This document shows, piece after piece, positions 53,516 through 58,282 of a stretch of 64,000 nt of DNA (its first letter is position 1; each line of letters opens with the position of its first letter). The notes below the pieces were generated by a model, which searched no databases, was not told where the DNA came from, and saw only the letters and a list, made by a program, of their open reading frames with translations. The stretch lies in the NCBI RefSeq assembly GCF_022347545.1, contig NZ_JAKREW010000002.1:186001-250000 (forward strand). The letters run 5' to 3'. The position numbers and the translations under genes are program-made. This DNA comes from Terribium retamae. GTDB lineage: Bacteria > Pseudomonadota > Alphaproteobacteria > Rhizobiales > Rhizobiaceae.

Positions 53516-56230
53516 TCAGAACTTGTCTTCTTCCGTTGGCACCAAGATCTCGCGTTTGCCGGCATGGTTGGCCGGACCGACGATGCCTTCCTGCTCCATC
53601 CGCTCGATGATCGAGGCGGCACGGTTGTAACCAATGCCGAGCCGACGCTGGATGTAGCTGGTCGATGCCTTGCCGTCGCGCAGCACCACGGCGACTGCCT
53701 GATCGTACGGATCGTCGGACTCGTCGAAATTGCCACCGCCGCCACCACCACCGGAACCGCCGCGACCCGACGGTTCGTCGTCGCCTTCGTCGTCGTCCTC
53801 GGTGATGGCATCGAGATATTCAGGCACGCCCTGAAGCTTCAGGTGCTGCACGACCTTCTCGACTTCGTCGTCGGCGACAAATGGACCGTGCACACGCTGG
53901 ATGCGGCCGCCGCCAGCCATATAAAGCATGTCACCCATGCCGAGCAGCTGTTCCGCACCCTGTTCGCCCAGGATGGTGCGGGAGTCGATTTTCGACGTCA
54001 CCTGGAACGAGATGCGGGTCGGGAAATTGGCCTTGATCGTGCCGGTGATGACGTCGACTGACGGACGCTGCGTTGCCATGATCACGTGGATGCCGGCAGC
54101 ACGCGCCATCTGCGCGAGGCGCTGCACGGCGCCTTCGATGTCCTTGCCGGCGACCATCATCAGGTCGGCCATCTCGTCGATGATGACGACGATATAGGGC
54201 ATCGGCTCGAGATCGAGATCCTCGGTCTCGTAGATCGCTTCGCCGGTCTGACGGTCGAAGCCGGTCTGCACGGTCCGCGAGATTTTTTCACCCTTCTTGT
54301 CGGCTTGCGCGACGCGCTGGTTGAAGCCGTCGATGTTGCGCACACCGACCTTGGACATCTTGCGGTAGCGATCCTCCATCTCGCGCACGGTCCATTTCAG
54401 CGCGACCACGGCCTTTTTCGGATCGGTGACGACGGGGGTGAGCAGGTGCGGAATGCCGTCATAGACGGAGAGCTCCAGCATCTTCGGATCGATCATGATG
54501 AGGCGGCATTCTTCCGGCTTCAGCCGGTAGAGCAGCGACAGGATCATGGTGTTGATGGCCACCGACTTGCCGGAACCGGTGGTACCTGCCACCAGCACGT
54601 GCGGCATCTTGGCGATGTCGACGATGACCGGCTCGCCATTGATGGTCTTGCCCAGCGCAAGGGCCAGCTTTGCCTTGCTATCTTCGAAATCGCGGCTGGC
54701 CAGGATCTCGCGCAGATAGACCATTTCGCGCTTGGCGTTTGGCAGCTCGATACCGATGGCGTTGCGGCCAGGCACCACCGCGACGCGGGCGGCGATTGCA
54801 CTCATCGAGCGAGCGATGTCGTCGGCCAGGCCGATGACACGGCTCGACTTGATGCCGGGGGCCGGCTCGAGCTCGTAGAGGGTGACAACCGGACCCGGCC
54901 GGACATGGATGATCTCGCCCTTGACGCCGAAATCCTCCAGCACGCCTTCCAGCAGCCGCGCATTCTGTTCGAGCGCATCCTTGGAGAGACTTGGATCGCG
55001 GGCCACACTCTTCGGCTCCGACAAGAAATGCAGCGACGGCATCTCGAAACTGCTCGACGCAATCAGCGAGGTCTGTGCCTCACGCTGCACGCGGGCACCC
55101 TGCTGAGGCCGGGGCGCCGGTGCTTCGACACGGGTCGCGGCATCGGAGCGGAAATTGCGCACCTGTGTGGTCGGGGCAGCGCGCGCAGCAGGCGGCGCGT
55201 CCATATAGGCGTCATCAGCCTCGAAGTCGGCTGTGTCGAAATCGCCATTGTCGAAATCGTCCCTTCCGAAGGGAGCCGCTGCGGGATCAACCGATGGATG
55301 ACGATCGTTGACCATGGCAGCAAAGAACTCCGGTTCGACCCGGGCGCGCCCTGTGGAGCTCATACGGGCTTCGGCAAGCTCCGCCGATTCGACCCGGTCG
55401 GCTGCCCGACGCCAGGCGCTCCCTTGCGTCGGCATCTCGGCAAAATCGAATTCGCCTTCTTCTTCCCGCCGACGCGCGGCGGCCCGGCGATGCAACCAGG
55501 CTCGGAACGACAACCACCAATGGGTGACGGCGCCCAGTGCCAGCAACCCACCATTGCCGTCATCGTCTTCCTCGTTCTCGAACAGGATCGCGTCGCGATC
55601 CTCTTCCTTCTCGCGACGCTTCGGCTCCGGCTCTTCCATCACGGCAAAGCCATTCGTGCGGGAAATCAGAGCCGAGCCATAGGCAAACAGCCACAGCGCC
55701 GGCGCCACCAGGAGCACTGCAATAACGGTCGCAGCAACGCCCGTTGGATAACCGCCAAGGAAAATGCCGGGTATTTTCAGCACCATGTCGCCGAACACGC
55801 CACCAAGACCGCTGGGTAGGGGCCAGGTCTTGGGCGGCACGACACAGCCGGCCATGCCTGCGACAAGCAGGGAGAAACCGAACCACGAAATGCCGCGCCG
55901 CGGCATCTTGTCGACACCGCGCGCGGAGAAAAGCAGGAATCCCCAGATCACCGCAGGGACCAGTCCCGCGACTGCCGAGAGACCGAAGAACTGCGTGGCA
56001 AGATCGGAGAACACCGCGCCTGGATAACCCATGGCGTTGGTGACGGCATTGTCGGTGGCATGCGAGAAGGACGGGTCGGCGACATTCCACGTCGCCAGCG
56101 CGGCCACGCCGAAGACGACGAAAATGAACAGCGCGCCGCCAATGAGCCTGCCGGCCTGCCGTCGCAGGAACGCCTGGAACCCGTGCCCGGTGCCAGTCAG
56201 CGCGAGCGGTGCGGATGCCCCTGAACGCAT
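53516..56230 (-). CDS. ftsK: DNA translocase FtsK
   Basis: Septum-located DNA pump that moves and unlinks the chromosome at division. It has 904 residues: four N-terminal transmembrane segments, a long acidic linker (about 200-430), the RecA-like motor with Walker A GTTGSGKS at 549-556 and a C-terminal gamma winged helix ([20 protein letters not shown]). GGGGA precedes ATG 56230. A perfect TTAA-N7-TTAA box lies 82 bp upstream. Confidence 0.96.
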
Positions 56231-56311
56231 GCATTTCCCCGTCTGTCGTTGCCTGAGCCGGATGCAGGACGCATTCCGGCAGATTCGGGGCCCAGACTAT
56301 CGGGGGGAAGG

Positions 56312-56326
56312 TTAAGGCAGCATTAA
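56312..56326. promoter_or_regulatory. CtrA-type binding site upstream of ftsK
   Basis: TTAA-GGCAGCA-TTAA matches the full CtrA consensus (TTAA-N7-TTAA) and the palindromic extension GGTTAA...TTAACC adds two bases per arm. A GANTC site (GATTC at 56282-56286) lies 26 bp away, the target of CcrM methylation. Both are typical of cell-cycle promoters in this class. The box is 82 bp upstream of the ftsK start. Confidence 0.7.
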
Positions 56327-56401
56327 CCATGGCGATTTTGAACGCCCTGGCAGATGTGATCTCCGGGTCGGTGCAATGACGATCAATGCCGGCCAATCAT
56401 G

Positions 56402-56429
56402 AAAAAAGGGCCCGGATTGCTCCGGGCCC
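56402..56429 (-). terminator. Rho-independent terminator of glnK-amtB
   Basis: Read on the minus strand, GGGCCCGG and its complement form a perfect 8-bp stem around a 6-nt loop, followed by TTTTTT (56402-56407). It lies 77 bp after the amtB stop and is the best-formed terminator of the window. Confidence 0.9.
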
Positions 56430-56506
56430 AGGTGGCGCGAGCGCGTTCGCAGCGACTCACGACGGGATCATCTTCTTGGACGGACAAGCCCCGTTCGATG
56501 CGAGGT

Positions 56507-57829
56507 TTACTGCACCACCTCGCCATGGAGGGTGACGTCCAGTCCTTCGATCTCTTCCTGCTTGCTTGGCCTCAAGCCAACCAGCGCCTTGACCACGTAA
56601 AGGATCACGAAGCTGGCGACGGCGGTCCAGATGATGGTGAAGACGATGCCGTAGAGTTGCTTGAGCACAGTGGCGTCCTTGCCGAGCGCATTGATGGCGG
56701 GATCGGCGAAGACACCGGTGAGGATCGCGCCGACGATACCACCGACGCCATGCACGCCGAAGGCATCGAGCGAATCGTCATACCCCAGGGCATGCTTCAG
56801 CTTCACGGCCGCGAAGTAGCAGATGATGCCCGAGGCGATGCCGATGACGAAGGCGCCTGTCGGGTTGACGAAACCGGATGCTGGCGTCACCGCGACAAGG
56901 CCGGCAACGGCGCCCGAGATGATGCCGAGCACCGACGGCTTCTTGGCGATCAGCCATTCGGTGAACATCCAGGCAAGACCGGCGGCGGCTGCAGCGACCT
57001 GCGTGTTGAGCATAGCTGCGGCGGCAAGGCCGTCGGCAGCGAGTTCGGAGCCCGCATTGAAACCGAACCAGCCCACCCACAGCAGGGAAGCGCCGATCAC
57101 CGCGTAGACGAGGTTATAGGGCGCCATGTTGACGGAGCCGTAGCCTTCGCGCTTGCCCAGCACCACCGCGCAGACGAGACCCGCAACGCCGGCATTGATG
57201 TGCACCACGGTGCCGCCTGCGAAATCGAGCACGCCTGCCGAAGCAAGGAAGCCGCCGCCCCAGACCCAATGCGCGACCGGCGCGTAGACGATCAACAGCC
57301 AAAGGCCACTGAACAGGAGAAGCGCCGAGAATTTCATACGCTCGGCGAAGGCGCCGGCAATCAGTGCCGGCGTGATGATGGCAAAGGTCATCTGGAACAT
57401 CGAGAAGACGAATTCCGGAATGTTCGCCACGCCCGGCGCCCACAGTGACGAAACGGTAATGCCCTGATGCAGCAGCTTGGAGAAACCGCCGACATAGGCA
57501 TTCAGCGAGCCGCCATCAGAGAATGCCAGCGAATAGCCGACCACGAACCACAGCACGGTAACCAGACAGCAGACGGCAAAGCTCTGCATGACGGTGGCGA
57601 GCAGGTTCTTCTTGCGCACCATGCCGGCGTAGAACAGGGCGAGCCCCGGAATGGTCATCATCAGCACCAACGCGGTCGACGTCAGCATCCAGGCGGTGTT
57701 GCCGGTATCGAGTGTGGGAGCGGGAGCAGCCGGTGCCGCTTCTTGCGCATAGGCTGCGGTTGCTGCGAGCAGGCCGATCAAGGCGGCCAGCGGCGTTGCC
57801 GCCTTCTTCAAGCCAGGAAGATAATTCAT
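56507..57829 (-). CDS. amtB: Ammonium transporter AmtB
   Basis: A trimeric inner-membrane ammonium channel of 440 residues with an N-terminal signal (about 9-28, cut before EAAPAAP) and eleven transmembrane helices. The pore histidines are His210 (in GGTVVHINAG) and His360 (in FGVHGVGG), 150 residues apart as in E. coli. The GlnK-binding region is present. ATG 57829 has GGAGAG about six bases upstream; an ATG at 57841 contains that same ribosome site. It lies 29 bp after glnK. Confidence 0.95.
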   Translation of the reverse strand: MNYLPGLKKAATPLAALIGLLAATAAYAQEAAPAAPAPTLDTGNTAWMLTSTALVLMMTIPGLALFYAGMVRKKNLLATVMQSFAVCCLVTVLWFVVGYSLAFSDGGSLNAYVGGFSKLLHQGITVSSLWAPGVANIPEFVFSMFQMTFAIITPALIAGAFAERMKFSALLLFSGLWLLIVYAPVAHWVWGGGFLASAGVLDFAGGTVVHINAGVAGLVCAVVLGKREGYGSVNMAPYNLVYAVIGASLLWVGWFGFNAGSELAADGLAAAAMLNTQVAAAAAGLAWMFTEWLIAKKPSVLGIISGAVAGLVAVTPASGFVNPTGAFVIGIASGIICYFAAVKLKHALGYDDSLDAFGVHGVGGIVGAILTGVFADPAINALGKDATVLKQLYGIVFTIIWTAVASFVILYVVKALVGLRPSKQEEIEGLDVTLHGEVVQ

Positions 57830-57858: not shown

Positions 57859-58197
57859 TCACAGCGCGTCGGTGTCTGTTTCGCCGGTGCGGATGCGCAC
57901 GGCCTGGTCGATGCCGAAGACGAAGACCTTGCCGTCGCCGATCTGGCCGGTCTTGGCGGCATTCGTGATCGCCTCGACGGCCCTGTCGACGAGGTCGGTC
58001 GAAACAGCCACTTCGATCTTGATCTTGGGAAGGAAGGAGACGGCATACTCCGCCCCACGATAGATTTCGGTATGCCCCTTCTGACGCCCGTAGCCTTTGA
58101 CTTCGGTGACGGTCAGACCCTGGATGCCGACGGCGGTGAGCGCTTCGCGCACCTCGTCGAGCTTGAACGGCTTGATGATGGCCATCACGATTTTCAT
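57859..58197 (-). CDS. glnK: Nitrogen regulatory protein PII (GlnK)
   Basis: A 112-residue trimeric signal protein that binds 2-oxoglutarate and ATP and blocks AmtB when nitrogen is ample. The uridylylation site Tyr51 is in EIYRGAEYAVSF, and MKIVMAIIKPFKLDEVREAL and GDGKVFVFGIDQAVRIRTGE are the family signatures. A sigma-54-like promoter precedes it. The pair with amtB and the preceding tesB on the same strand echoes the E. coli glnK-amtB-tesB neighbourhood. Confidence 0.96.
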   Translation of the reverse strand: MKIVMAIIKPFKLDEVREALTAVGIQGLTVTEVKGYGRQKGHTEIYRGAEYAVSFLPKIKIEVAVSTDLVDRAVEAITNAAKTGQIGDGKVFVFGIDQAVRIRTGETDTDAL

Positions 58198-58282
58198 CAG
58201 GATTCGCCCTTTTTTCGTTGCGGTCCCCGCGTTCCACGCGACATCTCCGGCCTCGACATGGGCCGGCGAATGCCCGTCGCAA

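Follow-up and report, generated by a model that had tools for sequence, protein, structure and literature searches.

A predicted full CtrA box upstream of ftsK and its conservation in Rhizobiaceae and neighbouring families

In Caulobacter, a CtrA motif lies in the ftsK promoter, and ChIP shows enrichment of CtrA there (PMC4287350). ftsK also appears in a list of CtrA motif-bearing genes in S. meliloti (PMC3616915). From the Caulobacter report and the S. meliloti listing, the kind of control considered here is already known. The locus described below resembles both. CtrA is proposed to bind upstream of ftsK, as it does in Caulobacter, where the relevant portion of the report does not state whether the box is full or half. 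In S. meliloti a CtrA motif is likewise predicted upstream of ftsK. Full-site promoters of Caulobacter crescentus share the TTAA-N7-TTAA pattern found here, with the 5' base at -39 in ctrA P2 (PMC4287350); at ftsK this position is predicted.

Other reports bear on the same question. The main texts of a later S. meliloti ChIP study (PMC4433202) and of Brilli et al. 2010 (PMC2877005) do not name ftsK. S. meliloti ftsK2 has been called an indirect CtrA target in one account (PMC11500502). Bacteroids of M. huakuii showed reduced expression of two genes named ftsK1, with ctrA unchanged (PMC3973600). For division genes, part of one S. meliloti paper (PMC4433202) and one Agrobacterium paper point the other way. 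What appears to be new, judging from promoter sequences, is the order-wide conservation of the ftsK box with a fixed geometry. No earlier report of it was found in the literature searched, the coverage of which was partial.

The ftsK promoter region

The window is a stretch of 64,000 nucleotides (64 kb) containing ftsK. The features of the locus are as follows.

53516 to 56230, minus strand: ftsK (904 aa), an open reading frame with its ATG at 56230, comprising an N-terminal membrane part and the FtsK motor; the gene predicted to be controlled
56282 to 56286: GANTC (CcrM) site, GATTC on the plus strand, at predicted +2 to +6
56287, minus strand: predicted ftsK transcription start, placed from the -10 position and the -39 spacing of Caulobacter CtrA-activated promoters
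56294 to 56299, minus strand: -10-like hexamer TAGTCT, separated from the second TTAA by 12 nt
56310 to 56328, minus strand: predicted CtrA box, extended palindrome GGTTAA-N7-TTAACC, which reads GGTTAATGCTGCCTTAACC on the ftsK strand
56408 to 56429, minus strand: intrinsic terminator with a 9-pair stem and a T tail (RNA fold z -3.2), ending the upstream amtB unit
56507 to 57700, minus strand: ammonium transporter gene amtB (part; TIGR00836 above cut-off), upstream of ftsK on the same strand

The ftsK product aligned with the FtsK model NF007615 over residues 386-899 and scored 606.8 bits, which is below the curated cut-off of 1566. The top full-length named matches were two Mesorhizobium loci with 82% protein identity, and the genome groups with Mesorhizobium. 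A PII-type gene at about 57862-58281, matched by PII models below their cut-offs, precedes amtB. The terminator closes the amtB unit and ftsK therefore needs its own promoter. The palindrome, TAGTCT and GATTC all lie in the 276-bp gap upstream of ftsK.

The core of the box, TTAA-N7-TTAA, occupies 56312-56326 (TTAAGGCAGCATTAA). GG at 56310-56311 and CC at 56327-56328 make the extension symmetric, and the edge of the box is 82 bp from the ftsK ATG. The initial annotation had described a full symmetric box at this distance, with a GANTC site 26 bp from it and a perfect match that is uncommon by chance. Coordinates and pattern scan agree with the box, GATTC is found at 56282-56286, 26 bp from it, and the core was seen once in the window, its sole occurrence, vs 0.02 expected per shuffled window. 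The comparative support given below is stronger than this count. The shuffle understates the true box density, judged from the 24 exact boxes in the whole genome (6,315,429 bases), which correspond to ~0.24 per 64 kb. Genome-wide over-representation of TTAA-N7-TTAA was not found (24 vs 40 for the reversed control pattern). The genome-wide count was consequently rejected as evidence of enrichment, the control pattern being commoner. Only 2 places in the genome carry the complete 12-base palindrome. From this genome by itself the box would thus be only moderately beyond chance, and the comparative evidence is decisive.

The remainder of the promoter was read from the box. The section on CtrA promoters in the Caulobacter report (PMC4287350) links full boxes near -35 to activation in predivisional cells and puts the 5' base of the ctrA P2 box at -39. 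When the 5' base of the ftsK box is set at -39, TAGTCT falls exactly at -12 to -7. All 24 aligned genus loci share the columns TA.TCT, and box positions around +26 to +32 are rich in T and A at 52 sites outside the genus. A sigma-70 consensus scan of 56200-56550 found 0 sites, with neither a -35 hexamer nor any other promoter-like site. A classical sigma-70 promoter before ftsK was rejected on this result, and the blank scan is in keeping with a promoter that lacks a good -35. The arrangement is that of a putative activator-dependent promoter with a predicted start.

We consider it likely that the box serves CtrA as a functional site of high affinity at the ftsK promoter and that CtrA~P activates ftsK before division. 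A phosphorylated CtrA dimer would bind the two TTAA half-sites over about -39 to -25, replacing the -35 element. Bound CtrA~P would then recruit RNA polymerase to the -10 element TAGTCT, and ftsK would be transcribed while CtrA~P is high, before division. That CtrA binds, that it activates and does not repress, and where and when transcription starts are all predictions. On the same sequence evidence, it is very probable that the cell cycle turns ftsK on and off.

CtrA could instead bind and repress ftsK by occluding RNA polymerase, with another promoter driving the gene. CtrA represses minCD in S. meliloti according to the section on these genes (PMC4433202), Caulobacter CtrA sites over the -10 are described as repressing (PMC4287350, in part), and a classical -35 was not found before ftsK. 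Against this, a fixed 12 nt separate the box from the conserved TAGTCT, a spacing that fits the activating -39 position, and 56200-56550 has no alternative promoter-like site. Activation of ftsK is predicted from this geometry, unlike the repression of S. meliloti minCD, and we felt that repression was unlikely here. The geometry is shared by few boxes. Among 15 gene-preceding boxes in this genome, TAnnnT at +27 was found only for ftsK and a tadE-like gene, and at +26 or +29 for two more. The ftsK geometry is therefore not common to all boxes of the genome.

Conservation of the box and the ftsK2 paralogue

Within the genus, the box precedes ftsK in 25/25 genomes, with its first base 93-97 bp upstream of the start. 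In one of these (G019) the ftsK N-terminus was on a separate contig and was checked separately. In 24 aligned genus loci, 8/8 box bases are invariant, vs 2/7 in the spacer and only 1/57 columns from -60 to -4.

The order sample comprised 120 genomes, of which two were dropped, G068 with no match and G117 with a weak match only. The remaining 118 ftsK promoters were scanned over 250 bp upstream and 300 bp downstream of the reading-frame opening. The N7 box was found in 27 and spacers N8 and N10 in 3 each, while none of the 118 had any of the remaining spacers between 3 and 12. Some reading frames are long (e.g. families f42, f18 and f11) and their true start may lie further in; when the scan of the sample was repeated up to the protein match for N-terminal anchors, these families still gave no box. 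By palindrome score, at least 11/12 positions matched in 32 of the 118 genomes and at least 10/12 in 40, with 0.0 and 0.7 expected from shuffles. These scores undercount slightly, G050 and G140 being exact in the spacer scan and low after a window shift. The own family is represented by five genomes in this sample, each with the box, and many other families have none.

A second set combined the genus with named loci. Here 81/110 loci had an N-terminal match, and 25 of the remaining 29 were scanned apart. N7 was found in 54/81, while all nine other spacers together gave 1 match. The same palindrome is present in the Sinorhizobium/Ensifer loci L046, L048 and L060. No box was found in the named Rhodobacteraceae and Bradyrhizobium ftsK loci that were scanned.

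For the class, 67 genomes were searched, 65 of them outside the order, and 40/65 were scanned, selected for a listed N-terminal match. The exact box was present in 0/40 of these ftsK promoters from other alphaproteobacterial orders; a single promoter, L311, came close with 11/12 positions. Given 0/40 outside the order, an origin of the full box at the level of the class was dropped as unsupported. The full box before ftsK is, as far as the promoter sequences indicate, a feature of part of the order. Conservation of the box, the lack of which the initial annotation had named as a refutation, holds in Rhizobiaceae and several other order families, and the box is missing from many order families and from the other sampled orders. 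Its absence from most families in the order sample (27/118 exact) and from all 40 promoters outside the order counts against a functional CtrA site that activates ftsK, as do the lack of a genome-wide excess and a TAnnnT geometry that is not general.

Most genus members have a second ftsK, the motor of which is about 70-73% identical. In the upstream stretches of ftsK2 from 15 genomes, including the own genome, the exact box was found in 0/15. The box separates the two ftsK paralogues by their predicted control. A half-site, TTAACC, recurs upstream of ftsK2 in the genus (L318-L331 and L265) and may be a CtrA half box.

These comparisons also bear on whether the ftsK box is due to chance, or to unconstrained likeness among close relatives. 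In favour of such an origin, a single box in 64 kb is no more than about fourfold the genome-wide density. The spacing is nevertheless fixed across families with diverged flanks, and the paralogue has zero boxes. Chance was rejected by the spacing control and the ftsK2 control, short of a biased sample, and we regard it as extremely improbable. A spacing-exact box across Rhizobiaceae and several neighbouring families argues for direct control of one late division gene by CtrA.

CtrA, other boxes and the GANTC site

CtrA is encoded at L274:945-1637, with 423.1 bits for NF045991 (cut-off 350), and is 86% identical to a Caulobacter CtrA query. The frame that adjoins ctrA is presumably chpT-like.

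Exact boxes also precede minC (TIGR01222 above cut-off), ftsE (TIGR02673 above cut-off), and genes for an RpoD-like sigma factor, flagellin, a PdhS-like kinase (362.7 bits, cut-off 2000), an L,D-transpeptidase-like protein and a PBP1A-like protein. Two full boxes lie upstream of rcdA (NF051867 above cut-off). Proteins flanking the own-genome boxes were scanned in Pfam (20 proteins, several without a family), and the genes beside L143, L266, L272 and L273 are unannotated. In S. meliloti or Brucella, minC, rcdA, rpoD, ftsE and flagellin genes are given as CtrA targets or as motif-bearing in the relevant portion of one report (PMC3616915). The minC and rcdA sites correspond to CtrA sites described in Rhizobiales in parts of three papers (PMC3616915, PMC4433202, PMC5900048), the same motif standing before both genes here.

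A different regulator might own the palindrome, either another response regulator of the OmpR type or a MucR-type silencer that acts at the same promoters as CtrA. The genome gave 43 response-regulator matches to the CtrA query, and MucR is reported at CtrA promoters in a passage of PMC4287350. TTAA halves with N7 are, on the other hand, the CtrA signature, and the same motif precedes known CtrA targets in this genome. A regulator other than CtrA seems to us very unlikely. CenR was rejected as the binder; it is unlikely because its published motif in R. sphaeroides, TGA-N8-TGA as given in the portion on this motif (PMC9275681), differs.

The initial annotation had further suggested that CtrA and DNA methylation state together time chromosome segregation. 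GcrA is encoded (PF07750 above cut-off), as is CcrM (RAMA domain PF18755 above cut-off; CcrM model NF050803 642.7 bits, below the cut-off of 830). The locus is thus like known GcrA/CcrM promoters in having a GANTC by a putative cell-cycle promoter and in the presence of GcrA and a RAMA-type CcrM. It differs in that GANTC lies between -35 and -10 in those promoters vs predicted +2 to +6 here, and in that the extended consensus does not match here. In Caulobacter, a GANTC in the -35/-10 interval goes with activation at 40-60 minutes, according to the part of the report concerned (PMC4287350). No GANTC was found between -35 and -10 of ftsK, counted from the predicted start. The extended GcrA-type consensus is given as YGAKTCK in the pertinent section of PMC7987155, and by eye neither strand of the ftsK site matches it, the gene strand reading CGAATCT and the opposite one AGATTCG.

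Over the whole window GANTC is strongly depleted, with 93 seen vs 322 expected from shuffles. The ftsK site is kept in 25/25 genus genomes, at +40 from the box start in 24/25 and at +41 in one, even in diverged members with altered flanks or an altered central base. Judging from this conservation, selection in the genus probably maintains the GANTC at the predicted start. Among 52 boxes outside the genus, GANTC occurs at +20 to +39 in 11, at +40 to +59 in 4 and at +60 to +79 in 7, and upstream of the same boxes there are 0-2 per 20-bp bin. These sites are partly interrelated, and the enrichment is a tendency and not a test.

If methylation state were the main timer of ftsK, with the CtrA box secondary, the fixed GANTC position in 25/25 genus genomes and the 11/52 sites outside the genus (vs 0-2 per upstream bin) would be accounted for. 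A site at predicted +2 to +6, outside the -35/-10 interval and away from the extended GcrA consensus, does not fit this, nor do the about 31/52 non-genus boxes without GANTC at +20 to +79. We think it quite unlikely. What stands of the earlier suggestion is a predicted CtrA site controlling ftsK, to which conservation, geometry, the company of other boxes and the presence of CtrA all point. The position at +2 to +6 and the departure from the consensus leave methylation timing of ftsK as a hypothesis that the evidence supports only weakly.

A wider scheme is possible, though doubtful. In Rhizobiaceae, CtrA might act directly on FtsK, and by motif on FtsE and MinC, and not on FtsZ/Q/A. The Mesorhizobium CcrM site at the ftsK transcript start might add a replication-state gate, and ftsK2 would not be switched in this way.

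Some boxes were also observed in their own right. The two in the rcdA promoter are at L269:1471-1485 and 1646-1660, 175 bp apart. A full box at L137:1501-1515 lies between GGDEF (diguanylate cyclase) and methyltransferase-like genes, both of which point away from it. The second GGTTAA-N7-TTAACC of the genome (L144:1499-1517) precedes a gene for an outer-membrane beta-barrel protein.
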